The notes under the pieces were generated by a model. The model was not told the DNA's origin, searched no databases, and saw only the letters and a list, made by a program, of their open reading frames with translations. A stretch of 64,000 nt of DNA from Cantharellus purpuraceus (lineage: Eukaryota > Basidiomycota > Agaricomycetes > Cantharellales > Hydnaceae). Where the stretch lies: positions 1,572,501-1,636,500 of the forward strand of contig JALBUN010000003.1 in NCBI GenBank assembly GCA_025174535.1, written 5' to 3'. Below are positions 3,481 to 59,383 of this stretch, piece by piece. Position 1 is the first letter of the stretch; the number at the start of each line of letters is the position of its first letter. The position numbers were made by a program, and so were the translations under genes.

Positions 3481-4790
3481 TAGTTGGTGGACCCACTCAG
3501 CACCATGCTACACAATAATGCATATGCTCACCAGTACTACACAACACATGCACATTCAGCGGTATTTGAATGGGCACACTTTTGATTCTCCAATTAGTGA
3601 GGAGCATATGCTCAAACTCACTGAGTGAATATGTGTTTGGCCCCAGTCTGACACTCTTCATGAGCTGGGAGTATGTGTGAGGGACTAGGTAGGGTTGCAA
3701 GAGACTTCACCATGTGATGTAGATTCTCATGTTGTATAGTACTCTTCCTCCTTGTAAGTACCCAAGGTACTTACTTACTATAACATATAAGTACAATTAA
3801 TATATGCAGTATTCCCTTAAGGAATGCTGCCCTCTTGATAGATATATGCACCCATAGGGTGTATATGTATAGTTATTATGTAAGCCAGTGGACCCAGTAC
3901 ACATGTGGGTCCACATGTAGTAGACAGATCTTAGACACTACCACACTGTACAACACATCACCCAACCAATACACTTGGTTGAGTTCTGTGCAATGGTGTG
4001 AACTAAGACACCCATTAACACTTTTTTGAACTTCCAAAGGAAGAATCAATTGATTCTTCCTCATTATTGAAGTTTTCTAGTCAATACTAGAAAACTGGCT
4101 GTTGCTGGCATACAGATGTATACCAACCCCCCCAGTTGCTCATATAAGTGAGCAACTAGTAGACTAACTTAATTAGCCTACAAAGATAAAAGAAAGAAAG
4201 GAGTCATCATAATGATGACTTGCAGTAGAGTGAGTTGTGCTGGCAGCACACAGGACATCATAAATGATGAATGGCAGCACATAGCCAGCAGCAGAAGCTC
4301 CCAGGAAGGGGAACTAGACCCTAGAGAAGTCACAGGGACTTCTTGTAAGGAAGACTCTAGAAGAGAGTCACCACGATTGCAAGACTGCACAGATGATCAC
4401 ACAATAGATCATCTGTCAAACAAGAACCCTTCATTGAGTGGTTCTTTGATTAGAGAAGAAAGGAGGAGACAGTCATCCACTGTCTCCAATGCTCCTAAAG
4501 GAAAGGAATGTGCTCAATATATGAGCACAAGTAGAAGTAGCAATAGCAATACTTCTACTAGGGAATCATGCAGCATGGAGCAGTGTGAAACCCACAGGTC
4601 AATTGCAAGATTGACTGAACAACTCATGCATAATCAACATGAGATGAAGAGCATTAGTGAAGCTAGTGCTCAGGCAGCTAAGATGGCTGCTGAAGCAGGG
4701 CATGCTGCCACTACTATGGGGCAGCAAATAGCAGAGCTAGGAACGATGTTAAAATCACTCCAAGAGAACTCTGAGTGATGCAAGTTGTGT
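3481..4790 (+). mobile_element. Palindrome-tiled LTR retroelement, 5' part (family B type)
   Basis: The interval has the same unusual texture as the gypsy element at 26.7-32.8 kb: consecutive short perfect inverted repeats, such as 9-bp arms at 3888-3914, a 22-bp perfect palindrome at 4039-4060, 10-bp arms at 4071-4096 and 9-bp arms at 4134-4157. A C-tract near 4125 precedes a Gag-like ORF (4212-4778), as a C-tract also precedes the ORF near 31.76 kb. I therefore read it as LTR/leader plus the start of gag, cut off at about 4790 where a host-gene fragment begins. No LTR ends or target duplication were located, so the element limits are approximate. Confidence 0.5.
4212..4778 (+). CDS. Hydrophilic Gag-like ORF of the palindrome-tiled element
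   Basis: Uninterrupted 188-codon ORF starting MMTCSRVSCAG. It is rich in Ser, Glu, Arg and Gln. The C-terminal third (from about residue 125) is Ala/Met/Gln-rich with heptad-like spacing and could form a helix or coiled coil, as in the N-terminal part of many gypsy Gag proteins. No zinc knuckle is present, so if it is Gag it is the N-terminal half only, the rest having been lost at about 4790. Nearly the whole coding sequence is covered by short inverted repeats (for example arms at 4389-4416, 4465-4487, 4509-4529 and 4530-4559). The assignment rests on context; an accessory protein is equally possible. Confidence 0.4.
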   Translation: MMTCSRVSCAGSTQDIINDEWQHIASSRSSQEGELDPREVTGTSCKEDSRRESPRLQDCTDDHTIDHLSNKNPSLSGSLIREERRRQSSTVSNAPKGKECAQYMSTSRSSNSNTSTRESCSMEQCETHRSIARLTEQLMHNQHEMKSISEASAQAAKMAAEAGHAATTMGQQIAELGTMLKSLQENSE

Positions 4791-4854
4791 CGCCGAAGAT
4801 CGGATTCTTGACAAGAATCTGAATCTGGAGAGTCTGGACCTCCCCAGGGTTATC

Positions 4855-5022
4855 ACTCCATGGCAGGGCGTTCACGAGGATGCTGCCCAGTATATTTGGA
4901 ATAAAGTAGAGTATGGACACATAAGCTCTTGAGTTTTTGTACCGAGCCACTAGAGCAACGCTGGTCCAAATTGTGATGACTATAATAACAGTGGACCGAG
5001 GCATCACAAATGTGCGCATCAA
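4855..5022 (-). pseudogene. MFS transporter fragment (middle segment)
   Basis: Minus-strand reading gives a hydrophobic segment, ALVARYKNSRAYVSIL followed by FIPNILGSILVNALPWSDN, that resembles the late transmembrane region of fungal anion:cation symporter (Dal5/allantoate-permease type) MFS proteins. Similarity stops near 4855 and the frame continues into unrelated sequence, with the palindrome-tiled element ending at about 4790. Upstream it runs straight into the truncated F-box gene. Notably, this segment is what would be expected just before the MFS piece that begins at about 8460, so both may come from one broken gene or from paralogues. Confidence 0.5.
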
Positions 5023-9380: not shown

Positions 9381-10314
9381 AGGGGCATGATTGAGGTCTT
9401 ATCCTCAACAATGTCAAACCCTTTGGCAAACATGAGCATGGCTGAGCTTGAGCAGTTGCTCTTGGCCTGATGGAAGGAAGAGGAAGTGGAGCAGAGACAG
9501 AAAGAGGAGGAGGAGGCAGAACAGGGACGGAAGGAGGAGGAGGAGGCAGAACGGAGACAGAAGGAGGAGGAGGAGGAGCAGAGATGAAAGGAGGAGGAGG
9601 AGGAGGAGCAGAGACGGAAGGAGGAGGAGGAGGAGCGGAGATGGAAGGAGGAGGTGGAGATGGAATGGAGAAGGAAGGAGGAAGAAGTGAAAGCTGAGTG
9701 AGCCCGCAGGGTCAAGGAACTTGTGGCCATGATGGAGGCCGTGAGACTGAAGGAAGTGGAAGAGCAGGTGCACAAGCTGGAAGCTGCCATGGAGGTAGAG
9801 GAGGAGGTGACCAGGGCAGGGGCAACCAGTCACTCAGGGAGTCCAAGTGTGCCAATATGGGCAGGGACCCCTGAGGTCACCATCATTCAATTATGTGGAC
9901 AGAGTCAACCTGTCCGACAACTGTCCCTGTTACGCCTGCGGTCATGGCCATTATTTGCGGTGGGTGCAGCTGAGGAAGATGATGCAGCAGAGGTGGAGAG
10001 GGCGGAGGTGGAGGCAGATCCCAATGCCAATATGGAGCTTGACACAAATGCGGAGCCCAAGGCAGGTGTGGATGTTGGGATGGATGCAGAGCCAGATCTG
10101 ACCTTGAATTGCTACAAGGAGATGGCTTGGGTAGCCACGGTCGAAGCTCACAAAAGGGCGGAGCTCTATGCTGCTACCACCAAGAAGAACCTCAAGGTCA
10201 CGGTTTTTTCATTGAAGGTGCACCTGAGTGCTGATATGGAGAAGTGGGAGGCGAACCAGAGGGTCATATGGTGCAAAGCGGAGAATCGCATGTTGGTGAC
10301 CCATAAGAAGGAGC

Positions 10315-19644: not shown

Positions 19645-21386
19645 TTATACATCGCGTTTCCTTTTACCCTTCCCCTTATCTACCTCAGGCTCCATCTCCG
19701 ACTCATCATCACTCTCTACATCCGACACCCAATCTTTCTCACCCCCATGTCCGAATCCTCGTCCAAAGGGGCCATGAACTTCCACAACCGACGTAACTTG
19801 GCTGTCCGCCAACCCTCCAGAACCTCCTTCCATTTCATCATCTTCACCAAGTCCACTAGCAACCCCTCCGTCCACCAGAGGTGCTCCGACTGCAGGTTAA
19901 CTAGCCAGATAAGCTGGCCCATGGTACTATTGGGTGCAGAGACGCGCCCCGTACCTGCACTGGTCGTTGCCCCTTCTGATCTAACACCGCTACCCCTGGC
20001 TGCCACAGCACCTGTCTCTGTCCGCCACTTTTTGGTCGGACGACCTCCTGATTCTTTCTCTGCCCCTCCTTGTACCACTAGTTGGGGCTTGATGCTCCAG
20101 CTCTGGGGATTGAACTTTCCATTGATCCTACACCCTCCTTTCCAACCCTGACAACCGAAGGCGGCAAGTTGGGCCAGTAGGCCACACGCACTCCACACCC
20201 GCATCATGACACAAGTCGCAAGTTACGCCGGGCCTGCCAAATGGCTCCATTGGAGCCAGAGCCTTGGGTGGTCCGCCCCTTCTCGCTGCGGCCTCCAAGT
20301 GTTCCCTCTCCTCCTCCTTGTCCTGCTGCTCTGCTGCTGCCTTCTCCATCTCACGCTTGCAAAGCTGGATCGCCAACCTCATGACACGCAGCTCCTTCTT
20401 ACGGGTTGCCAACGCGCGACTCTCCGCCTTACACCATATGACCCTCCAGTCCACCTCCTGCTTCTCCATTCAGCACTTGGGTATGCCTTCAATGAAAAGA
20501 CCACGACGTCGAGATTCTTCTTGGTGGTCACGGCATAGAGCTCCGCCCTTTTGCGAGCCTCAACTGTGGCTACCCAAGCCATCTCCTCATAACAATTTGA
20601 AGTTGGATCCAGCTCCGCATCCGTCCCGACATCCACACCCGCCTTGGGTTCCACATTTGTGTCGAGCTCCATATTGGCATTGGGATCTGCCTCCACCTCC
20701 ACCCTCTCCACCTCCATCGCTTCATCTTCCTCAGCCGCACCCAACCCAAACAATGGCCGTACCTGCAGACGTAATGGCGAGTCCTCCGCAGTGACAGTTT
20801 TCGGATGAGTTGTCTCCGTCCATGTAACAGAAATGATGGCGACTTCAGGGGTCCCTGTCTGTATTGGCACACTTGGGTCTCCTGGACTGGTCACCCCTGC
20901 CCCGGTCACCTCCTCCTCCACCTCCATGGCAGCTTCTAGCTCGTGTGCCTGCTCCTCCACTTCCTTCAGTCTCGCAGCCTCCATCGTGGCCGCAAGTTCC
21001 TTGACCCTCTGGGCTCTCTCAGCCTTTGCTTCCTCCTCTTTCCTTCTCCATTCCATCTCCACGGCCTCTTTCCACCTCTGCTCCTCCTCCTCCTTGCGTC
21101 TCTGTTCCGCCTCCTCCTCCTCCTTGCATCTCCATTCTGCCTCCTCCTCCTCCTTGCATCTCTGTTCCGCCTCCTCCTCCTCCTTCCGTCTCCATTCTGC
21201 CTCCTCCTCCTTCCATCTCCATTCTGCCTCCTCCTCCTCCTTCCGTCTCCATTCTGCTTCCTCCTCCTCTTTCCATTTCTGCTCCTCTTCCTCTTCCTTC
21301 CGTCGGGCCAAGAGCAACTGCTCAAGCTCAGCCACACTCATGCTTGCCAAAGGGTTTGACATCGTTGAGGATGGGACCTCAATCAT
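19645..21386 (-). pseudogene. Antisense gene of gypsy family A (A1 copy)
   Basis: Minus-strand gene convergent to pol, its stop about 150 bp from the pol stop. The 5' part (20379-21386) is one long frame: MSNPLASMSVAELEQLLLA, then about 110 residues of Glu/Arg/Lys/Trp repeats predicted to form a coiled coil, then AAMEVEEEVTGAGVTSP and an acidic segment. After a frameshift near 20470 it continues with QLCKREMEKAAAEQQDKEE (about 20350-20400), CDLCHDAGVECVWPTG, a second frameshift that destroys the other half of the cysteine cluster, then NSTMGQLIWLVNLQ, KDWVSDVESDDESEMEPE and a basic end. A TATA box lies at 21393-21402. The family A3 copy has the intact cluster. Not found in standard gypsy elements known to me; the role is unknown, possibly regulatory. 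Confidence 0.7.
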
Positions 21387-22039: not shown

Positions 22040-24960
22040 GTTGTTGTAGGCAAACTCTGCTATCAGAAGTAGATCAGCCCAGTTGTCCTGTTGATAGTTA
22101 CAATAGACTCAGAGATATTGTTCCAGGGACTGATTCATTTGTTCCGTTTGTCCGTCTCCTTCAGGATGGTATCTGGAGGTGAAATGAGGCTTCATGTTGA
22201 GAGCCTTTCCTAATGTGCGGAAGGAGGACACAAACTCCGAGCCCCGATCGGACGTGACATGCGATGGGACTCCATGTTTAGAGAATACGTGGAGAATGAA
22301 CAACTTAGCTAGTGAGGCGGAGGTGATGGTGTCATGTGTCGGAATGAATAGTGACTGTTTAGTGAACCTGTCGACAATCACAAGTATGGTGTCATGTCCG
22401 AGCGATGGGGGGAGCTTCTCTATGAAATCCATGGAGATGGAGTTCCATGGTTGCTCTGGGACTGGAAGTTGTTTAAGCATTCTGTAGGGTTTGTGCCTTT
22501 GCGATTTTGAGTGCATACATGTGGTGCAGGAGTTACAGTAGTGTTGAATGTATTCTTGCATTTTTGGCCATATGTAGTCTTGCTGGATTAATCCTTGTGT
22601 GCGATTTTGCCCAAAATGGCTGGAGATTGGGTGATCATGATAATACTGCAAAACTCGGAGTCGGAGACCATTGGCGTCAGGGACATATATCCAGTTGTTG
22701 TGTCAGAGGTGTTCTTCAGGGTCAAATGACTATTTTAGATCGGAAGGGTTGTCCAAGTGTTTAACTGCAACAGGATTGGATTGGAGTGATGAGCAGATGT
22801 TGGAGCGGAGTTGGTCGATGTCCATAATGGTAACAGCTTGGAGGGTGGGAGTCATGAGGGTGGATGCCCATAGGGACAATGCCAGCTGCTCATTAGTGAA
22901 CACAGGATGAAAGTTGTGTGGGTTTACAGTGGCATAGTTGCTACTCCCCTCTTTAGGGTAGACGTCCCAGCATCTAGTCACTGCATCGGGCTTTGCTCCG
23001 AGTTGACCAGGATGGAAACGGATGACGAGATTGAACTGAGACAGGTATTCAGACCATCAGACTTGTCTCCGGGTGAGTAGTTTCGTTGTGGAGAAGTATT
23101 CCAAGTTCTTGTGGTCCATTATGATGTCCACCAGATTGGAGGGGCCTTCAAGGTAGTGTCTTCATATCTGGAAGGCTTCATATATGGCAAGGAGCTCTTT
23201 GTCATGGACATCATAGTTCAGTTTGGGGGGTGTAAATGTATGTGAGTGAAAAGCGATCAGATGGACTTGTCCATCATCTCTCTGGATGATGGACAGGATT
23301 GTGGCAAGTGCATAGTTGGAGTCATTGGTTTCTAATAGGATAGGAATGTCTGGAACCCAATGAGTCAGTATCGGAGCAGAAGTAAAGGCCTTTTTCAAGG
23401 TCTCAAAGCTCTGTCTACATTTGTCAGTGAAATTCCATTGGGTACCCTTCCTAGTAAGTCGGGTGAGTGGAATGGTGATATTGGAGTAGCCATAAATGAA
23501 GTGGCGGTAGAAGTTGGTGAACCCCAGGAAGGACTGTACATCTTTGACTTTCTGTGGTTCCAGCCATTCCTGTATGCTTTGATTTTGTCATCGGACATTG
23601 TCAGTCCTGCCAGGGAGAGGATATAGCCTTGATACTCGACCGAGTCGGAGTGGAATTCACATTTGTTGGCGGAGGCGAAGAGGCCATGTTTTCGGAGACA
23701 TTGGAGTACCTCTCAGACATGTGTCTGATGCTCTTCTTCATTATCCGAATATACTAAAATGTCATCTAAGTAAACGAGGACGGTCACATCGAGGAGGTTG
23801 GCGAAGGTATCATTCATGAACCTCTGGAAGGTGGCCGGAGCATTGGTTAGTCTGAAGGGCATGACACACCACTTGAAAGATCCATATCGAGTGCGGAAAG
23901 TCATTTCCACTTGTCACCTTCTCAGATGCAGACTAGATGGTAGGCATGTCGGAGATCTATTTTGGAATAGATCTTAGCCTTTCGTGGGCTCTCGAGTAGG
24001 TCCGCGGTGTGGGGTATTGGGTATTGGTCTTTCTTGGTGAAGTCAACGCATAGACAGAGTGATCCGTCCTTTTTGCGGACAAATAGGACCAGAGCTCCAT
24101 GGGGAGATAGGGATGGGCAGATGAAGCCCATGGCCAAGTTCTCATCTATGAATGTTTGGAGGGCCAGTAGCTCTTTTTGGGATAGCAAGTAGATAGGGCC
24201 AAGTGGAGGGGTGGAGTTGTCATCCAACTCAATCTTGAGATCGTATGGTCGGTGTTCTGCTAGGGAGTTGGCTTTAGACTTGCTGAACATGTCGGCGAAC
24301 TCATGATACTCCTTAGGAACCATAGATAAGTCTGGTGGAGTTGATTGGGCAGAACAAGCAGCGAGGAATATCGGATTGGAGAGGTGAACCTGGAATGTGT
24401 GAGAGCCATCCAGTTTGCTTAGTCTGGTGAAGACCATAGCATCCACCATTGATATAGATGGAGGGGTAGATGGAGTATCTATGGGAGCAGAGTCAGCGGA
24501 GGCAGAAGATAATTTTGCACCTAAAGTTGCTGGTGACATTGGGGATGACACAGCCTGTACTGGGGAATGGAATGTGATATGGCCCAATGCCCAGTCAATC
24601 AACGGATTGTAGCGGGTGAGCCAGTTATGTCTGAGAACCACAGAACAGCTGGAGTCAAGCAGAGTAACATAGAATGTAAGGTTCTGGATTTCTCCAACAG
24701 AAAAATGGATAGACAGATCTATGGCTTGTGAAATAACAGCATTAGTAGTGCCATCAAATAATCAGAGTGATATTGGAGCTATGGTGTATGTATGGAGTTT
24801 ATGTAAATTGGAAAAAGAGGAATCAAGGAAACAGTGAGTAGAACCGGAGTCAATTAATGCCTGGATAGTGGTATTGGGAATGGAGTCGGAGTAGATGAGG
24901 AGGGTAAGGGAGTCAGAGTGGGAAAGAGTGGATGCATTCAGGCGGACCTCGTTTGTCATA
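22040..24960 (-). pseudogene. Pol of gypsy A2, 3'-truncated
   Basis: Minus strand. Protease ALIDSGSTHCF (about 24830-24870); a 239-codon frame (23922-24641) holds VVLRHNWLTRYNPLIDW and the N-terminal RT with KKDQYPIPH and KIDLRHAYHLV. Then [10 protein letters not shown] (about 23755-23785), RNase H (about 22980-23400), the HHCC segment and integrase core (22109-22651, 180 codons open) with VTSDRGSEFVSSF and YHPEGDGQ. It is less damaged than A1: several sites that are TGA in A1 are CGA or CAA here. The frame ends at the A1 LTR junction in the integrase segment reading EFAYNN. Confidence 0.83.
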
Positions 24961-26155: not shown

Positions 26156-26187
26156 TGGTAGGAGTGAGTATGGCAGTTTGAATATAC

Positions 26188-26726
26188 TGTTACACACTAG
26201 GTCTGATTGGGGGTCAGAGATTGTGTCAGAGGTTGGGTCAGAGGTTTGGTTGGAGTTGGAGAGGGAGTGGGGACATTGTGGAGGTCAGAACAGACTTGGC
26301 TTCAGCTTATGTGCTGCACCCTCACTAATACCGGTGTCTGAGATTTCAGAGATGGGGTACGACTTAGAGAGTTAGGATCGGACTTAGGAACTAGGTGTGA
26401 TTCAACATTCAAACTGGGGAATGAAGTCCCCAGTCAGGCAGCTTAAATACATATTTGAAATCTAATAATAATTACTCCAGTGATGGGTCTCCAAGGCTGA
26501 CAGCCTTACATGAGTATGTCTGAGTCCGATGGGGACAGATGTCCAGGTTCCTATGGTGATGCTGATGCATCAATCAGAACCAGAGATGGATGGGCAAGAT
26601 TCAGCAGTGACAATCAGACAGGTAAATGGAGACGTGACAGTTTCCAAATGGAGTATAGATTTCATATGCGCAGGGATCTGAGTGGATCAGACAGGGATCT
26701 GGGCATTAATGAATATAGTCATAACA
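26188..26726 (-). repeat. 5' LTR of gypsy A2
   Basis: Reverse orientation, TGTTACACACTAGG at its left end and GTCATAACA at its right end. About 539 bp and clearly alignable with 21504-22039 and 27179-27717. Confidence 0.85.
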
Positions 26727-27178
26727 GGTAGTTGGAACATTGAAGAATATTTCGATGTCACCAACATTGAGTATTATGATGTAATACTTGGTACCCCATT
26801 CCTACAAAAGCTAGGAATATGCCTGGACTTTAATGGCCCAGCCCAAATCATGATGGGAACTGAAGAAGTCCCCACCAATGGAGAGCATAATACTGATGCT
26901 CTTCATACCCCATCATGGGGTATAAACTCAACAAAGAAAGAGTGTTGGAACGAATAAATGATGCCAAGGGGGTAACTCTAAACACGAGCTACCCACAATG
27001 CAGTCCTTCCTAAAAGAAGGACTAGACTCAGTAAAGGACCCCCCAGTGGAGGATTCAAATAAGAGCATGACATGAATAGCTTCGTCTTGTGAAGGATCAA
27101 CCACTTACACAGCTGGTCAGATCCCTCAGTTGAGGGATCAATGGAAAGAAAAGTACGCTGACCTATTCAGCAGCATAC

Positions 27179-27717
27179 TGTTATGCACTGAGTCCAATTG
27201 GGGGTTGGAGATTGGGTCAGAGGTTGGGTCGGAGGTTTGGTTGGAGTCGGGGAGGGAGTCAGGGTATGTCGTGGGGGTCGGAATGGACTTGGCTTCAGCT
27301 TATGTGCTGCGCCCTCACTAATACTGGTGTCCAAGATTTCAGAGACGGAGTATGACTTAGATAGTTAGGATCGGACTTAGGAACTAGGCGTGATTCAACA
27401 TTCAAACTGGGGAATGAAGTCCCCAGTCAGGCAACTTAAATACATATTTGAAATCTAATAATAATTACTCCAGTGATGGGTCTCCAAGGCCGACGGCCTT
27501 ACAAGTATGTCCGAGTCCGATGGGGACGGATGTCTGGGTTCCTATGGTGATGCTGATGCATCAATTGGAACCGGACACGGATGGGTGAGATTTGGCAGTG
27601 ACAATTGGACAGATAAATGGAAACGTGACGGTTCCCAAATGGAGTATAGATTTCATATGCATGGGGATCTGAGTGGATTGGATGGGGATCTGGGTGTTAA
27701 TGAATATAGTCATAACA
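27179..27717 (-). mobile_element. Family A solo LTR with CATAC target duplication
   Basis: 539 bp, TGTTATGCACTG...GTCATAACA, flanked by CATAC at 27174-27178 and 27718-27722. Element B coding sequence is continuous when it is excised, so it entered B after B had fixed. No internal element sequence remains, as after LTR-LTR recombination. Confidence 0.93.
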
Positions 27718-28969
27718 CATACCCTTAGAACTTCCCCCATTTAGGGAAGTTAACCACAAGATTAATCTCGTGGATCCTGACAAGTGAATACATTATCACT
27801 TGCCTAAGTGTCCAGAGCACTACCGAGCAGAACTTTCAGAGAAAGTCCTGCGATACACCACTGCTAAATGGTGGGTATTGGCTACAGCCCAGCAGGCCAT
27901 ACCAATGCTATGCATTCCCAAAAAAAATGGGAAGCTCCACACCGTGTTCAACTTGTGCAAACAGAATGATAATACGGTGAAGGACGTAACACCCTTCCCT
28001 GATCAGGACAACATTAGACATGATGTTGCCTGCTGTACATATTGATCTAAACTCAATATGTCTGAGGTGTATGAACAGATACACGTCAGACTGACAGATA
28101 TACCCAAGACAGCGTTTGCAACCATCTTGGGGACATTTGTCAGTCAAGTCATGCAGCAAGGGGACTGCAATGCCCCCTTGACATTTCAGTGGCTCATGAC
28201 TGCCATCTTCTGAGAATATATCAATAGATTCATCCATGTATATCTGGATGACATATTTGTGTACTCTCATACTATATGAGAGCACAAACACCACCTAGAG
28301 ATGGTGTTCACCAAGCTCAGGAAAGCACATATGTTCCTGAGCAAGGATAAGATCAATCTATACTCAACAAGTATGGATTGCCTTGGTCACCTAATAGATG
28401 ACCAAGGTGTGCATGCAGACACTGATAAAATGCAGTGAATATGAGAATGGAGACAACCTAGGTCATACCATAAAGTCCAACATTTTCTTGGACTAGTGCA
28501 GTATCTGGTGCACTATATGCCAGACATAACTGCATACACAACCCTGTTATCAGGTTGTGCTTGTAATAATCATCCATTCTTATGGATGCCGCTGCTGGAG
28601 AAATGCTTTGAAAGCATCAAGCTCCTAGCATGTAGGGTTCCAATATTGAAGCCCATTGATGTCAATAACCCCAATACTCCAAAACTGGAGTCAGAGCCAT
28701 CTATGGACAAGGAAAAGATTGGCAGACCTGTCAGCCTGCCAGATTCCTATCCAAGAAATTTAGTGCTGCACAACAGCACTATAAGACCCATGAGCACAAG
28801 ACTATAGCTGTGCTCAAAGCCCTAATGAGATGGGAAGATAAGCTACTAGGACAAAAGTTTGTCCTAGTAACTGACCACAAGGGTCTCAAATACTTCAAGA
28901 CCTAAAAGAACCTGTCTCCTAGACAGATTAGGTGGTGGGAATTCTTATCCTGTTTCAACTTCACTGTCA

Positions 28970-29360
28970 GGGCAACCTAAGCAGATGCTCTACCAGAGGT
29001 GGTGAACTGACAAAGGGGGATCCAAAGAGAAAACTCTGAGGAGCACTTCACCAGTCTGGGACTAAATATATAGCTTGGAGAATGAAAGCTGAATGATCCG
29101 AACTATGTATGAGGTAAGCAAAGATGAATAAGCAGGGAGATGAAGTGAATGGGTGCTTCGCTTAGACAGAGGATGTGGAGGGAATAGAAAACATAAAGAA
29201 AGCAAGGGAGAAGAGATGGAAAGGGAATCTGGAGTGTCCAGGCAGTCGTGAGCACTGTTTGTCTGTGTAGCAGGCTTCAGACTTGTTTGCTGCACTTCAG
29301 ATCATGCTCGCTGGATTCAGAGTGTGGGAAAATGGTGGGCGACCTCTAAGAGTTCCCCTT
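28970..29360. other. Unexplained segment within element B RNase H/integrase linker
   Basis: Between FLSCFNFTV and TLHIDGVENKVADCLSRYY about 390 bases do not fit the expected continuous pol frame. The first part still reads like a second version of the same motif (ADALPEV); the middle (about 29080-29280) is AG-rich without the palindrome texture. An insertion or a recombination patch is likely; the source is not identified. Confidence 0.4.
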
Positions 29361-29972
29361 ACATTCACCACCCTGCATATAGATGGGGTAGAGAACAAAG
29401 TAGCAGATTGTCTATCACGCTACTATGCTGATGACTCCCCAACAGAGAGTCATCCCAACTACATCTACATGAGTGCAGATGTACGTCTTGACCCTGAAGG
29501 AGAACTGCTCCCCACGGAACAGTTCATTGAGATCAGGACAGCAGCAGTCACCTGAAGGTGACTGCTCGAGAAAAAAGAAAACAGAGTGCTAGAAGCTGAA
29601 GCACTCAATGTTCAAACAGAATCATTGAATGATGATTCTAATTCCTCTAAAGAAATAGAGGGTGTTGGAGTGATGTCATCAGATGATGACGGAACACCAT
29701 TGCAATCCCATGTTGAGCATGGGATCAACCTCATGCAGATTGTATGAAGCACATATAGAAAGGATACTGTCCTTTCTAAGGTGCTGGAAGCACCTAAAGA
29801 GCATGCATGATTTGGTGTGCGTGATGGTCTAATATGGACCAAAAATATGTACAAATGTGATGTCATCTGTATACTCTGCTCAGCATTCCTGAAGGGGAGG
29901 AGGCTGGTTGAGATAATAATTGACCATGCACACCAAGTAGTTGGCCATTTTGGTCAACTAAAAACCACACGC

Positions 29973-30493
29973 GATTGAACTGAGACAGGTATTCAGACCA
30001 TCAGACTTGTCTCCGGGTGAGTAGTTTCGTTGTGGAGAAGTATTCCAAGTTTTTGTGGTCAGTTATGACATCCACCGGATTGGAGGGGCCTTCAAGGTAA
30101 TGTCTCCATATCCGGAAGGCTTCATATATGGCAAGGAGCTCTTTGTCATGGACATCATAGTTCAGTTCAGGGGGTGTAAATGTACGCGAGTGAAAAGCGA
30201 TTGGATGGACTTGTCCGTCATCCAGAGAGATGATGGACAGGATCGCAGCGAGTGCATAGTCGGAGGCATCGGTCTCTAATAGAATAGGAATGTCTGGAAC
30301 CCAATGAGTCAGTATCGGAGCAGAAGTAAAGGCCTTTTTCAAGGTCTGAAAGCTCTGTCTACATTCATCAGTGAAATTCCATTGGATACCCTTCCTAGTG
30401 AGTCGGGTGAGCAGAACGGTGATATCAAAGTAGCCGTGAATGAAGCAGCGGTAGAAGTTGGCGAACCCTAGGAAGGACTGTACGTCCTTGACT
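29973..30493 (-). mobile_element. Internal fragment of gypsy family A (RT/RNase H) without LTRs
   Basis: Minus-strand 520-bp piece encoding MKKAFTSAPILTHWVPDIP through [19 protein letters not shown], closely matching A2 at 23010-23540. It sits inside the integrase core of element B in place of B's own sequence. There are no LTR ends or target duplication, so it did not arrive by normal integration. Confidence 0.8.
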
Positions 30494-31323
30494 CACATCT
30501 ATCTTTTGGCATGAACTACAGCAGATAATGGGAGTGAAACTCCTCATGTCCACAGTGTTCCATCTGCAAACAGATGGAGCGATGGAATGAGTGAATCGTT
30601 CCATTGGCCAAATACTTTGTACCATTGTACAAAGTGATCAGAAAGATTGGGCACACAAGTGTCCAATGGTGGAGTTTGCACTAAACTCCAACATAAGCTC
30701 AACAACAGGGTTTACTCCATTTGAGCTTAACCACAGGTATATGCCTAGAATAGGCATGCCCATTAACAATGATACCAAGTTCAAGGGTGTCAAACGATTT
30801 GCACAGCAGGCTCAAATGAACCTGCTAGCGGTGCATGATGCAATTATAGAAAGTCACATCATTCAGACGTTTCATGCCAATAAGAAACATCGGGAAGGTC
30901 CAACCTTCCAGAGAGGTGACAAAGTCTACCTTTCAATGAAAAACTTGACTCTACCTAAGGGTAGAACCAGCAAAATAGTGCCCAGGTATTGGACCATATA
31001 AAATAATCAAAGCCCATAATAAAGCTTCAATGGTGACACTGGAACTGCCACCAGAACTGACTAGTAGGCATATTACACCTATGTTCCACATCAGTCTCAT
31101 TTGACCATATGTGCTGAATGGTGAGATGATGGGAAGCAAAGTCATTTTATGACTTTGGGAACAACAATGAGCAGGAGTGGCTCATCGATGAAATCATCGC
31201 TCATCAATGGATAAGTGATAAAGAACTTGAATTTCAAGTTCTATGGATGTTGGGAGACATCACCTGGGAACCTTACACATCATGTAAGGACCTAGAAGCT
31301 CTAGACAATTATTTAGAGCTTTG

Positions 31324-31754
31324 AGGGGTGATTCGAGTGTGAGAACTACCTCATAGACAGTAGTTCTCAGAGACAGAGCCCCAAAGATCTAATGGGGCTC
31401 AAGGGGGGGAAGTGGAACTACCAAGAATAAAGGTAGCTCCTAGCAGGATGTGACAAGAGCTACCATCAATGATGGTAGCTCAATGAGGGGAGGAGGAACC
31501 ACCTTGACTAATGGTAGTTCCTAGATAAGGATAGAGCTACCATAACAACAGGTAGCTCAATGGCAGAAAAAACTGCTCCCATAGGGAGCAGTTCACTGTT
31601 GTGCTACTCATAGTAGCACAAAGGGGTAAGCGATAATTAATTGTGTTACACCCATGTGACGTAGTCACTGGAAAATTCTCAATAAAGAATTTTTGAGCTC
31701 AGCCATAAAAGGCTAGTGGTGTTTCTTTGAACCACCACAACCCCCCCCCCTCCA
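31324..31754. other. Non-coding part of element B after pol
   Basis: About 430 bases with repeated short words such as GGTAGCTC / GAGCTACC and inverted repeats around 31580-31620, ending in a run of C (31741-31750). No frame. It may be an untranslated region or LTR of an element B copy. Confidence 0.4.
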
Positions 31755-31778
31755 TCAAAATGTCATCTCAGAAGGGAG

Positions 31779-32820
31779 ATGATGGATGCTCAGGATGAGC
31801 ATCCAATGGAAGTTGAACAAACTTCCACAGCTGCAGCACTGGTAACTAGTGCTGCAGATATGATCAGGAGTCATCAAGATGAGATGACCTGGAAAATTGG
31901 TGGATGGCATGGTGGCGCTGCCATCCATCACCCTCATGGGTGCAACAAGTGCGACGCATGTGTTGCACTTAATCAAGGCCCAAAATGGAGGCTGACTATA
32001 TCTTTCCACTGCTTTGGTGGAAAGGGCATTAAGAGTCACGTGGCTGCAACTTATATGTGACATCAAAGATGATGTCACAACACCTTATCATGAAGACTAC
32101 GATAAGATGTACAAGGACAACTTGGACCTGTTTGTGCAGGTCCAAGAACTTGAAGGACTTCTTGACAATGAGAAGTCCAAAGTAACTCGTCTCAGAGACA
32201 AGTTAAAAACACTGAAGGAGGCTGCTGACAGAGCACCTACGTTCAAGACCAAGCTCACAATGGTGCGCTTGGCCCCAGTAGCATCGCTATCGCGTGCTAC
32301 AGCAGGCAAATCATTGCCTGCCATTATGTTGTCATAGCCTGTGGCTTCATTGTCATGGGAAACAATCGATCTCACCAAAGAGGACAATCGCCTGAGCAAA
32401 TTGCCTTGGGTCAACCCTTGAGGGTTCAAAGGTCAAGATTGGGACAATACCAACCCAATCTGGGAAGGATATGACCATGATCATGGTCTCCTCCTGGCTA
32501 ATATCCCCAAGGGTGCTAAGCAACTGGGCAAACTCAAAGAGTTTGCCCTATCAGAAATTGAAGCTGAGATTGATCAGCTTTGAAAGGAGTATATGGCTGG
32601 TGACACCAGCTGTACCTTAAAAGACCCAGCATTGAAGATGCTGGAGGAAGACCAGCATATGAATTATTGCAAATGCTGGGATGATTTTGGGCATGCCCTC
32701 AAGCATACCAATGCAGGGAAATCATTCCCCAAATGGGCACCATGGTTCATGACTGCGGCTGACTCTCCCAGAGCAGTCACTGGCCACCTGCCACAACCTC
32801 TGGTGTATGGGAACCACCTT
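31779..32820 (+). pseudogene. Unidentified ORF region of palindrome-tiled element
   Basis: Starts MMDAQDEHPMEVEQTSTAAA (93 codons open), with a CNKCDAC cysteine motif at about 31950. A frame change leads to a coiled-coil stretch (VQVQELEGLLDNEKSKVTRL, about 32128-32190) and then another open frame to about 32990 containing YCKCWDDFGHAL. It lies downstream of pol in the same orientation and has the strongest inverted-repeat tiling of the window. It could be gag of a second element copy or an extra ORF after pol; I cannot tell. Confidence 0.45.
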
Positions 32821-34798
32821 TTCCCTATGACGCTTGTTCAGAATCATGTCAGTATACAATATTCTGATGTATATGAGATATACATCAGAATTTCAATGAT
32901 ACATAAAGCCAGGGAGTTACAATTTGGATATCTTAAAAGATTTTGGATGTGTGAAATTTTCATAAATATAAACATATATTCTATATTTTAATAAACTTTA
33001 AAAGATGAGATATTTGGTTGAGATGAACATAATCATTTACATGGATATAATAGGAATGTCTGGATTAATATAATTGGTATTATATAGGGTATTTAGATAC
33101 ACAAATGCCAGGTGGGGATTAAAGATAGTTCAAATTATGTTACAAGTATTGTATAAGAAAGAATCAATGATATTTGGATGTTCCCTCAACAGAGTTGCCA
33201 CCACTAAATGGGGAAAAAACAATTATTTTTGAGAATTATGCCAAAATATCAAAATATGTTTTAATCTAGTATATTGTGTAAAATTTGAGAATCATGTTGA
33301 AATATGAAAATAAGTTTGAATTGAAGTGTATTGTGTAAAATTTGAGGAAAATAGGTTGTATATATGTATTTGTTGTATTTCTGAACAAGCATCTATCAAA
33401 TTCCATTTATACAGCACCAATGTGCTCTATTTCACTTTTCCATTCCTAAATATCAGCATATACATGGTGCTTATACTTGGAATGGATTATTCAAATATTC
33501 TCTAATTTTCCATATTTTTTTTGGGAATATTCCATGCAGAACTTGGCCCAGAATGCTCTTATTCTGCTGTGCTACAGTTGTGGACCCATAGGCACCCACA
33601 AACCTTCACACAGTCAGCTCTCCACCTTTGGACCAGGCATTCGGCCTGAATTCAAGCTCAGATGTCTCTGATCAATAAATATTCTGTAACTTGACAACCA
33701 CAGCCTCTCAGGGCACAATTTTCCATGGAGATCATCATCTGAGATGTGGCTATCCATGGCTGTGCAAACCAGTGCAGAAAACAGGGTGGATACCCTCCTT
33801 TTTGCCTGATCAGTGCCTATTTTAGGGATCAGAGCAGGTGATTGATGATCAGATCAGGTGATTGCCTTGGAATATTCTACCCCTTTCCATAACATTCTAG
33901 CTGTTTCCTTCTATTATTAGATAGAATATTCCAGAACCATTATTCAGCTCCTGATCAGTGTTAATGCAGTGATCAGAACCTGTGATTGGCTTGGAATATT
34001 CTACCCCTTTCTTCCACCTTCCACTACCTTCCAGTAGTTTCCATCTATTAATAGGTAGAATATTCCAGAAGCATTACTCAGCCCCTGTAAATACAATATA
34101 TAAGGAGGTCATTCTGCCTCTGAAATAATAACATATTCTACCACTTCTACCCATCTTCTGCACACCAGTGTGACTAGAGTGACATACAGTGTCATCCTCT
34201 CTCTCAGTAACTGTTGATTACCAGTTCAAGGATCTTTTACAGTTGTGTAACTGTACTTGATTGCACTCAAAGTAGTGATATTCTTGGGTGTGAGTGTAGT
34301 ATCTGCATCATGTGACTACGAATCTACAGGGTGAGATTGTCTGTCAATAGTCCTGCCATTAGTGCTCTTGTTTAGGTTACTAGTGTGTACTGCCTTTGCA
34401 GAGCATTAGAAGCTTGAACTCGTGTGAAGCAGTTGCTAGACTACTTCACACATCGCTGTTACCCACTTCAGAGTGCCACTGGTTGGACAGTTGGATTCAT
34501 CCACCTACTTCCTTTAGCCTCTAAGTGCATTCCCCTCTTTTTGGAATATCTGGACCCCTAAGCATCTGTGAACTCTAGACTCTGGAAGTCTTATTCATTT
34601 CTTGCTGCTAAGAAATGTATTACCTTTCTGCGTATAGTCTGCATTGACCAATACAAAGGATTGTAACCAAAGTATGAACATTAAATCTTTCTGGAGTTGT
34701 GCTGCAGCAGGGTTTGATATTCTTCTCAGCTGTTCATTCACAGAATTGTGGTGATTTAGAGTTTGCCCTAACACCATAATTTTGCGGGTTCCAAAACA
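32804..34798 (+). mobile_element. E-type LTR, long variant, with mismatched flanks
   Basis: Starts TGTATGGGAACC and ends GGTTCCAAAACA like the solo LTR at 10315-11769, but is 540 bp longer because of an AT-rich stretch (about 32830-33390). TATAAGGAGG (about 34101) marks the promoter region. Flanking pentamers are TCTGG and ATCTG, so there is no target duplication. The left flank is element B and the right flank is a copia pol in the other orientation. Confidence 0.75.
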
Positions 34799-56673: not shown

Positions 56674-58886
56674 AATCGACAGGTGTGTATGCTTGCGATG
56701 GGATGCTACCTTTGTCTCAAGCTTTCGCTCTTAAATACATGAATTCGGCGCTATCGTTGACTCCTCGTGGTCACAATCGCATGGGCGAACAAACTACTCT
56801 AGGCTACCTAGACCATCAAGTAGTTCTTTTCGTAGGTTTTCGGCTCGTGCAAAGTCGTTGTTCACAACGAGTTGGGCCAGACCTGTGTCCGAATAGAATC
56901 GGTGGCTTTTTACCCAACGCGGAGGGGAGGTGTGTCAATTAGTGGCTACGGATGGAGGAGCACATTGTACATACTCATCTGAGAACGGTTCGAAGATGGT
57001 ATTGTCGGTGGACGCCTTAGCCTGTTATCTCCATCACGCGTCATGTGCATGAAACTCGGAGCACCTCCCGGCAAGAGCAGGACTAGTGGTCATAACCGCC
57101 AGCCCGTGCATTTGCGATGGTCTCATCCTTCAATCTCTCCAATGCGAATGGAGACGATAAAGCAATTGAGTCACCCTAACATGGGCCGTGCTTCATCAGA
57201 AGGACATAAAATGTAGATGAACATGACTCAGGATTGGGTTCTTCCGAGTTGGACGGCAGCGAAGACAGGGCCAAGTGAGACAGATTGCACATGTAGTCTT
57301 GCCTAGCTTGTCCAGCCTCCAGACTGCTCAACGCACAGCAAACTGGAACTGCATCACGAGCCCTGACGACGACGATCAAGCTCTCCGCAAGACTTCCGGT
57401 TCTCTTCCAGTTCTGAGAATCTTTGTTGATGAAGCCAGACACGTTAGGGTCACGGCGTGATAAAGTTTCCGCGACAAAAGGTTTAGAGCTTTCTAGCACT
57501 TCAAAAAAAAAGAAAGGAAGACCTGAAGTGCTACTGTACCGGTAGCATTTCAGGTGATGTCGGGATGGGTAGCCAACGTCTCAGGCATGTGGATGATTCT
57601 TTTGGACAAACTTCTCCCCTCCCCCAATTCCTCCACAGAGGCAATGTCTGTCCTCAGTTTCGTCTTCTATCACTGTTCAATACTCAGACCCGCCTCAGGA
57701 AATGAGAGAACACTTCAGCTCGTGGGGCGGTCCTGGCCGGATTTACGGTTCTGCCATCATAAGCGAATTTGGTGGCCTAGAGAGGGAAGTCTGAAACCAT
57801 CAGAGTGCGTGGCACGTGAGTCATTCAGAGCGACAATTCTGAGGTACCATCTTCAGGAATGACATCCAGGGATCCATGACGTGATCCTCTCCCCGATTAT
57901 GCAGCTCGTCGCTGAACTGCGCGATCGTCTTGTGCGACCTCTTAAGTACCAGTGGAGTGTTTAAAGCGGTGTATTCATGATGGAACAATTTGATGAACTA
58001 CTAGGGCGTTACATCTGTCATCTGCCTTGTGGACGAGTCATCTACCATCATTTATGGGTTCCACTATAAGGATTTTTCCATCAGTCCTCCGATTGTTACA
58101 TTCACTGTAGGAGATCCTTTCGTTGTGAACTCGCAATATTTCTAATCACCTTCTCAAGGCTCGTTGGCTGATCTGGACTCTCCACCGAGAATATCATCTA
58201 TGCTTTCTGAGCTCCCAATCTCGCTTGGAATCATGATGCCAAAGCACGTGCCGTTTTTCAGTGACTTATCCCCCATCATTGTTTTCCACCACCCTGCCAT
58301 ACCCAACTCACAAGAAGTGGTTTATGAACGTCCAACGAATGGGATCTTTTGCACCATCCTGGCCACATATCTCAAGGTGTTTTCATATAGCAGCCAACAC
58401 GTTGTGGAGTAACCGATTTCATTTGACCGGACGGAGCCCCCCATCGATCCCATACGCCCATGCGATCCGATAGGGTCTTCGCCACTCATCATCGTTATCC
58501 AGATGTTGACTTTTACACCCTCACTCAAGGCCGCGAGCGAGCACTACAGTTCGTCCGGCGGAAACCGTACATACGGGACAAGATGAAGATTGCATATCGC
58601 TTGTATTCCTGATGCCGTCCTAGAGGTTTGGTATCGGACTGGTACTGGTTTTTTCCAAAAGAATATCAGGTCAATCCTTGACTCTACACTTGATTGTTCC
58701 AGAAAGGACTAAGGTGGAAACGGCTGTGAGCGGAGAGCGCCGCGCGATCCAAGCATCCTGCGTAGTCGTTCCCCCAATATGCAATTTCAGAATTTGGTAT
58801 TTGGGTGGTTGGCACACACACATTATTGCTGGATTTCATTTGTCATTAATGGACAAGCAAATCAAGGTGCTTTTAATGCAGCCTCC
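56674..58886. other. 2.2 kb without an identifiable gene
   Basis: Open frames at 57176-57499 (minus, 107 codons), 57554-57862 (plus, 102 codons) and 58164-58412 (plus, 82 codons) show no known domain and have no clear splice partners. A run of A (57506-57514) is the only low-complexity feature. I cannot support a gene here. Confidence 0.35.
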
Positions 58887-59383
58887 TGTTATGCACTAGG
58901 TCTGATGGGGGGTCAGTAACTGGATCAGAGTTTGGGGTTGGAGTTTGGGGTGGGTGTCAGGGTGCATCGTGGGGGTCAGAACAGACTTGGCTTCAGCTTG
59001 TGTGCTGCACCCTCACTAATACCTGTGTCTGAGATTTCAGAGACAGAGTATGACTTAAATAGTTTGGATCAGACTGAGGAGCTAGGCATGGTTCAATATT
59101 TGAACTGGGGAATGAAGTCCCCAGTAGCATGACTTAAATACATATTTGAAATCTAATAATAACTACTCCAGTGATGGATCTCTAAGGCCAATGGCCTTAT
59201 GTGAATATGTCTGAGTCTGACAGGGATGGATGTCCAGTTCCTATGGTGATGCTGATGCATCAGTGGAACTGGGGACAGATGGGTAGAGCCACAATGATGA
59301 TTGGATGGACTACAGGAGGTGTACAGTTTCCAAATGGAGTATAGATTTCATATGCATGGGGGTCTGAGGGATTGGATGGGGAT
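58887..59383 (-). repeat. Family A LTR, interrupted at its right end
   Basis: Reverse orientation, TGTTATGCACTAGG at 58887, alignable with the other A LTRs up to GATGGGGAT at 59383, where an E-type LTR begins; the last 20-50 bp with CATAACA are missing. It is more diverged than the other copies (mostly transitions). Confidence 0.8.

Follow-up and report, generated by a model that had tools for sequence, protein, structure and literature searches.

Some RNA viruses carry ordered RNA structure on the scale of the whole genome. For DNA, template switching is known to make scattered perfect hairpins: the inversion of a loop at a perfect inverted repeat was described as the footprint of such an event in yeast coding genes (PMC8604942) and likewise in RNA genes (PMC8794818), and quasipalindrome mutations in transcribed yeast DNA were tied to RNA-DNA hybrids (PMC3820800). 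A whole protein-coding mobile element saturated with such hairpins was not found in the literature searched. Here, element B is described, a decayed multi-copy family of Ty3/gypsy-type retroelements of the fungus Cantharellus purpuraceus, which was studied from a stretch of 64,000 nucleotides (contig JALBUN010000003.1, positions 1,572,501 to 1,636,500), called the window below, and which is densely set with short perfect inverted repeats. The view of a first-pass annotation of the window that no described retroelement has this texture was not contradicted in the open-access literature, subscription papers and preprints lying outside the search.

As the standard, perfect inverted repeats with arms of at least 7 bp and a spacer of 2-12 nt were counted. 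Between positions 26727 and 32891 of the window, 65 such repeats were identified, against 4.1 in 100 dinucleotide shuffles (maximum 9), an excess of about 16-fold; with arms of at least 8 bp the count was 42 against 1.1, and with arms of at least 10 bp it was 12 against 0.05. The first-pass annotation had listed eleven repeats in this span and judged their density to be far above chance. All eleven exist, several with arms longer than given (10 bp at 31783-31805 and 32056-32079, 8 bp at 28264-28282 and 31807-31827), and the accompanying estimate of about one repeat with 8-bp arms per 6.5 kb agrees with the shuffles. The annotation had also taken the entire span as hairpin-built element B. While the B pieces are dense, inserts at about 27179-27717, 29006-29353 and 29970-30492 are nested within B and lack the texture. 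The end of B is near 32828, and a different insert holds the 14-bp repeat at 32861-32891. The texture is also seen outside the span, in another B fragment at 3753-4850.

The comparison of B with other DNA covered 264 kb (the window and 20 sampled loci, given here as L numbers). B-like DNA contained 1433 repeats in 124,131 bases (11.5/kb) and other DNA 164 in 139,869 bases (1.17/kb), which is a difference of about 10-fold. When the DNA was divided into bins of 400 bp, hairpin coverage averaged 25% over 581 B bins, and a single one of 552 background bins reached 20%. Within B, the density ranged from 5.3/kb in the integrase zinc-finger piece to 17.7/kb at the 5' end. The reverse transcriptase (RT) region was compared in 21 distinct copies, in which 26 hairpins (arms of at least 4 bp, paired in at least 60% of the copies) covered 58% of 917 columns where column-permuted controls gave 30%; 59% of the columns lay in a perfect hairpin of some copy (arms of at least 7 bp), against 8% in such controls, and 27 of 34 hairpin centres recurred in at least three copies.

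The hairpins are present in coding as well as in non-coding parts (Table 1), as the first-pass annotation had stated. In seven open coding pieces of B, 39 repeats were identified, against 3.4 and 3.8 in two sets of protein-keeping controls (200 controls each, maximum 9 in each), 2.1 after codon shuffling and 2.4 after dinucleotide shuffling. Synonymous choice therefore carries the texture. The proteins stay recognisable, and arm codons are about as conserved among relatives as others, which supports the earlier remark that protein function and hairpin formation must have been reconciled: residues of B match those of cousins about equally in arms and outside, and for close relatives the match in arms was 0.65 and 0.64 against 0.55 outside in RT, and 0.68 and 0.59 against 0.56 outside in integrase (IN). 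The register in which constrained codon positions pair with each other (1-2, 2-1 and 3-3) is used less than expected, in 13 of 63 cases where shuffles give 35%, in a count to which L029 and L036 contribute hairpins in common. No clear difference in conservation was seen between left and right arms that would indicate a direction of copying.

Within the DNA sampled, the texture is confined to the B family. Eight RT loci were picked from a genome protein search for a comparison with cousins. Three of them (57-68% identity in the matching fragment) have hairpins like those of B (18, 12 and 17 repeats against about 1.1) and are decayed B copies, whereas the five cousins L041-L044 and L048, with 40-50% amino-acid identity, contain 1, 1, 1, 3 and 2 repeats against 0.7-1.1. 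A DNA relative of B was not found in the viral contigs, and one was found in the genome contigs, the lichen-derived cousin L049. Here, 8 repeats were counted against 3.2 (maximum 9 in 100 shuffles), and with arms of at least 6 bp 25 against 12.2, above all 100 shuffles, which is a weak excess of about twice the expectation. In the window, element A and the nearby host genes had been described as free of the texture. The stretches counted have no comparable density but show at most a mild excess, with 24 repeats against 11.8 in the element-A stretch and 26 against 18.5 in 34000-64000 (20 shuffles each).

The texture is also strand-symmetric. Selection on the sense RNA should tolerate G.U pairs and not A.C pairs, and this was the basis of the wobble tests. 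Among 39 unique one-mismatch stems, G.T was found in 16 and A.C in 14; the RT stems gave 46 G.T against 81 A.C cells; the 435 non-CpG single-copy arm variants included 130 G.T and 134 A.C; and the majority-state interior mismatches outside CpG sites were G.T in 7 cases, A.C in 9 and other in 15. None of the four counts revealed a G.U preference. In folding windows of 150 nt, the mean z of six B pieces was -3.7 to -4.2 for the sense strand and -3.5 to -5.4 for the antisense strand, with no consistent advantage of the sense strand in these pieces; four cousins, host DNA and element A gave -1.0 to +0.2. Neither of the two marks of ordered sense RNA, tolerance of G.U and better folding of the sense strand, was thus observed.

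The arms are mostly 7-11 bp long and the loops have 0 to 12 nt, with the background level reached at 13. The mean hairpin span is 21.6 (sd 3.7; n=272, arms of at least 6 bp, in pieces of L029, L036 and the window that overlap in part). Arms of 4-5 bp show a small relative excess and those of 6 bp or more a large one, and the biggest excess count above 5 bp is at 7 bp. In two non-coding regions the mean arm was 8.8 and 9.1 bp, against 7.5-8.7 bp in seven pieces from gag to integrase.

Raised transversions in loops led to a search for inverted loops, in which a loop was scored when it lay two or more transversions away from the commonest loop and none from the reverse complement of that loop. 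This was the case for 13 of 3861 copy-loops (raw and partly redundant), on four hairpins; the same scan outside loops scored 0 of 131,562 control segments. Three of the inversions are present in one copy each (AGA/TCT in L025, GAA/TTC in L034 and AAA/TTT in L023). In the fourth hairpin, at 29543-29566, the loop has four bases and reads TGAA in the window but TTCA in L024, L031 and L032, which are on different contigs, so that the inverted loop was probably inherited from the active lineage; L024 and L031 are only about 91% identical over 2.3 kb and are therefore not recent duplicates. Because an inverted loop at a perfect inverted repeat has been described as the footprint of a template switch, template switching seems to act at the hairpins of B. 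Two of five strict loop inversions were rejected because the alignments showed different decay states of CpG sites, so that three were kept and the fourth hairpin was supplied by a transversion-only scan; candidates of the TGAAAGTTTG type were discarded on account of differing CpG decay states as well.

After insertion, the hairpins have decayed passively. B copies differ mostly at CpG-derived sites, and the ratio of observed to expected CpG is 0.10-0.23 in the window pieces of B, against 0.48-0.73 in adjoining stretches. In the RT region of the copies, C>T and G>A differences pile up at CpG and at CpA/TpG; together with the strong CpG depletion, this pattern reads as a signature of methylation or of a process like repeat-induced point mutation. 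The rate of non-CpG single-copy variants is nearly the same in arms (0.114 per site), in loops (0.112) and outside (0.113), and the hairpins therefore seem not to be maintained now. With a third copy used to define the hairpins, divergence was much alike in arms, loops and outside sequence. In an initial alignment of RT, arms had seemed conserved (minority fraction of 0.022-0.031, against 0.075-0.081 elsewhere), which was for these reasons rejected as an effect of ascertainment. The original density was probably higher than present counts show, because CpGs once present in arms have decayed.

Relatives of B reach 79% identity in RT and 82% in IN. The nearest were identified in environmental contigs, and those further removed come from named basidiomycetes (Ganoderma, Ceratobasidium, Trametes, Coprinellus and others). 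Substitutions of relatives at arm codons are compatible with pairing more often than expected from position shifts, 0 of 40 shifts being as high in RT and in IN; slides of the right arm were as high as observed in 0 of 20 cases in RT and in 1 of 21 in IN. Against feasible pseudo-hairpins, which the protein also permits, the signal was not significant (0.05-0.11 in RT, 0.07-0.26 in IN), and distant cousins gave no signal of pairing compatibility. Among the B copies, which are very similar and confounded by CpG decay, no compensatory pairs were clear beyond CpG effects.

The explanation that we favour, although we hold it at slightly less than an even chance, is that the arms arose by template switching while the lineage of B was active, and that they were filtered by protein selection. 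We infer that this would have happened during reverse transcription, far more commonly in B than in its cousins. The growing strand would fold back or change strand at a short inverted repeat, one arm would be copied into the other and the strand would return, each event leaving strictly complementary arms. Protein selection would have kept those events that the codons could absorb, so that short perfect hairpins accumulated over about 9 kb; the master would then have spread, its copies being mutated at CpG and its hairpins decaying passively. The first-pass annotation had named template switching among the possible causes, and the loop inversions provide direct support for it. Also in favour are the Watson-Crick arms without a wobble preference of the sense strand, the folding of both strands, the longer arms in non-coding DNA and the under-used codon register.

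Several observations weigh against this explanation. Clean replacement of several bases in one arm by the other was not found: nearly all of the apparent arm gains among those listed are TG/CA states of former CpGs and were rejected. Loop inversions are rare beside point changes, and the process must be specific for B, given that its cousins in this genome are without the texture. A crude simulation of arm copying took a piece of a cousin as its start, with a single extension setting and three seeds for each condition. With the coding constraint, no rate but the highest of those tried brought it to 12 repeats/kb. At this density, the simulated coding sequence held arms of at least 10 bp at 5.1/kb, against 0-2.6 in the pieces from gag to integrase, and the codon-register deficit was not reproduced (14 of 40); without constraint, the mean arm was 14.6-18 at the two highest rates, against about 9 observed. 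As the simulated arms are too long, copying would have been limited to a neighbourhood of about 25 nt, or selection bounded the hairpin size, or both. Finally, variants common to at least three copies are rarer in arms (0.0073 per site) than in loops (0.0188) or outside (0.0145), a deficit which concerns about 10 arm sites in partly overlapping chunks and is in part expected from the definition of arms. As evidence that the active lineage maintained its hairpins it is weak, and selection would also give such a deficit.

Ranked second, after template switching with protein filtering, is selection for compact folding of both strands, that is, of both RNA strands or of single-stranded complementary DNA (cDNA), reached for the most part through synonymous choice and ordinary point mutation. 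This is a serious rival and a real possibility, although the balance lies against it. Such folding could hide B from pairing with small interfering RNA, limit long double-stranded RNA, or organise packaging or cDNA. It would account for the bounded size of the hairpins, in non-coding DNA too, and for arms shorter than crude copying yields. The low folding z on both strands, the paucity of shared variants in arms beside an even spread of single-copy variants, and the pairing-compatible substitutions of relatives relative to position shifts are in line with it as well. However, the last of these signals lost significance under the fairer pseudo-hairpin control, no clear compensatory pairs were seen, no need is known for the antisense strand to fold, and the strong CpG depletion of the window pieces shows that B did not escape CpG mutation. 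The further proposal of a fungal retrotransposon clade with a selected hairpin code, in which synonymous choice folds both strands into hairpins of about 22 nt end to end and selection keeps this code in related elements of other fungi, where it would protect from RNA silencing or provide an architecture for packaging or replication, is considered rather unlikely.

The first-pass annotation had also proposed selection for folded RNA or DNA in general terms. In the form of selection on the sense genomic RNA alone, with an ordered structure as in some RNA viruses, this is improbable: the folding energy is very low in all B pieces tested and hairpins are present in coding and non-coding RNA, but the stems are local and perfect, every wobble test came out without a G.U preference, and the antisense strand folds as well as the sense strand. 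Usual Dicer substrates have far longer arms than the hairpins of B, and other repeats in the sampled DNA are without the texture. A silencing-related origin, with hairpins that are or were precursors of small RNAs or marks of host defence, is thus very improbable, even though the span of about 22 nt is near small-RNA size and the window B pieces are strongly CpG-depleted. Chance, composition or an assembly artefact is already refuted, the CpG-depleted composition being the only point in its favour, while dinucleotide, codon and synonymous controls all stay far below B and identical hairpins recur across 21 distinct copies on many contigs.

The genome sampled consists of 40.15 Mb in 50 contigs. 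The RT piece of B was found at no fewer than about 40 genomic places, the window included (48 matches from the 40 of 141 candidates that were scored, several of which are fragments of one place or very short), with 85-92% identity to the window copy for matches spanning most of the query. A protein search of the genome with B gave at least 150 matches from 888 candidates, distant Ty3 relatives among them. The order of domains is Ty3-type capsid, CCHC knuckle, aspartic protease (PR), RT, ribonuclease H (RNase H), H2C2 integrase and SH3_Tf2-1, followed by a spacer and a third open reading frame (ORF) region. In pieces of L036, the Pfam families zf-CCHC, RVP_2, RVT_1, Integrase_H2C2 and SH3_Tf2-1 were matched above the curated cut-off, and Ty3_capsid, Retrotrans_gag and RT_RNaseH_2 below it; the succession of gag, PR, RT, RNase H and integrase, seen in L036 and the sampled loci, places B in Ty3/gypsy. 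The L036 equivalents of 27718..29005 match RVT_1 (E 7.6e-20) and RT_RNaseH_2 (E 9.9e-6, below the cut-off). In L036 6983-7372, SH3_Tf2-1 (E 6.1e-12) is the only domain found, the search for a chromodomain having covered this piece alone and not the sequence further downstream. Two L036 pieces of the third ORF region matched no Pfam family, and no Rfam family reached its gathering score in the window. A coiled-coil-like stretch is seen in the third ORF region after the integrase, at 31760-32828.

The 5'-end unit of B is found again about 9.1 kb downstream, on the 3' side, in L033 and L036, both of which stop inside the unit. The start of the fragment 3753..4850 is common to L022 and L029 and is probably the start of the long terminal repeat (LTR). 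Its open frame runs on into gag in L029 (frame 1597-2172), and the fragment has at least 46 genomic matches (from 40 of 476 candidates scored).

Table 1. Pieces of element B and its inserts in the window, with the evidence for each
Feature	Position	Strand	Evidence
B fragment, 5' end and open frame 4212-4778, hairpin-dense	3753..4850	+	18 repeats (arms >=7) vs 1.15 expected in 3500-5000
B, aspartic protease region	26727..27178	+	B-like stretch; L036 3405-4067 matches RVP_2, E 5.3e-5
Solo-LTR-like insert of another element, not hairpin-dense	27179..27717	.	1 repeat (arms >=7) vs 0.22 in 27160-27720
B, RT and RNase H, hairpin-dense	27718..29005	+	16 repeats vs 1.2 expected
Insert of unknown kind, without repeats	29006..29353	.	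0 repeats in 29000-29400; no match in sampled loci
B between RNase H and integrase	29354..29969	+	9 repeats vs 0.54 in 29400-29960; holds hairpin 29543-29566
Insert related to element A (23025-23324), no texture	29970..30492	.	0 repeats (arms >=7); repeat D9
B, C-terminal part of integrase and SH3 (Tf2-1-like)	30493..31334	+	11.7 repeats/kb over 12 copies (30500-31330)
B spacer, taken as non-coding, longest hairpins	31335..31760	+	15.5/kb; 6.4/kb with arms >=10; mean arm 9.1; 9 copies
B third ORF region downstream of pol, decayed, hairpin-dense	31760..32828	+	14.4/kb over 6 copies (scanned as 31760-32890, thus taking in a little of the adjoining insert); no Pfam match
Element like a miniature inverted-repeat transposable element (MITE), about 566 bp, AT-rich, not part of B	32829..33394	.	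Carries the 14-bp-arm repeat 32861-32891

The solo-LTR-like insert is tied by the repeats D2, D3 and D14 to 26184-26727 and 58883-59201. Copies of the MITE-like element, which has short inverted termini and carries its 14-bp-arm hairpin close to one end, are 76-98% identical and are present in L027, L029, L032, L034 and L040; in L029 and L032 it is inserted within B copies. In L023 (G000:C17:606000-615999), two B copies lie 4.82 kb apart with identical match statistics over PR and RT, which suggests a recent segmental duplication or an assembly duplicate. In L028 7408-8841, the spacer and third ORF region of B form a head-to-head inverted pair with arms of about 0.6-0.8 kb and almost no gap. 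Two related stretches of 27-30 bp tandem repeats rich in CTCCT/AGGAGG lie in opposite orientations at 20999-21328 and 9473-9690, and perhaps represent a charged repeat in an ORF of element A.

If template switching wrote B, the element would be a natural record of runaway hairpin copying under protein constraint; if selection wrote it, a mobile element would encode, besides its proteins, a structure of both strands. In both cases the many copies of B offer a couple of hundred hairpins for testing the origin of stems, the bounds of their size and their decay. Compared to the template-switch and quasipalindrome systems, B shares short perfect inverted repeats, strict complementarity and loop inversion, but the events are scattered in the parts of those reports available (PMC8604942, PMC8794818, PMC3820800), whereas B is a mobile element of about 9 kb which is apparently saturated, and in which arm homogenisation was not caught in progress. 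With Ty3/gypsy elements (Metaviridae) that have a Tf2-1-like integrase tail, B shares the same domains in the usual order; it differs by its third ORF region and by its hairpins, being alone hairpin-tiled beside the cousins L041-L044 and L048, with only a weak likeness in L049. With the RNA viruses of ordered genome structure, B has pervasive folding alongside coding in common, but its stems show no wobble preference and are short, local, perfect and alike on both strands.

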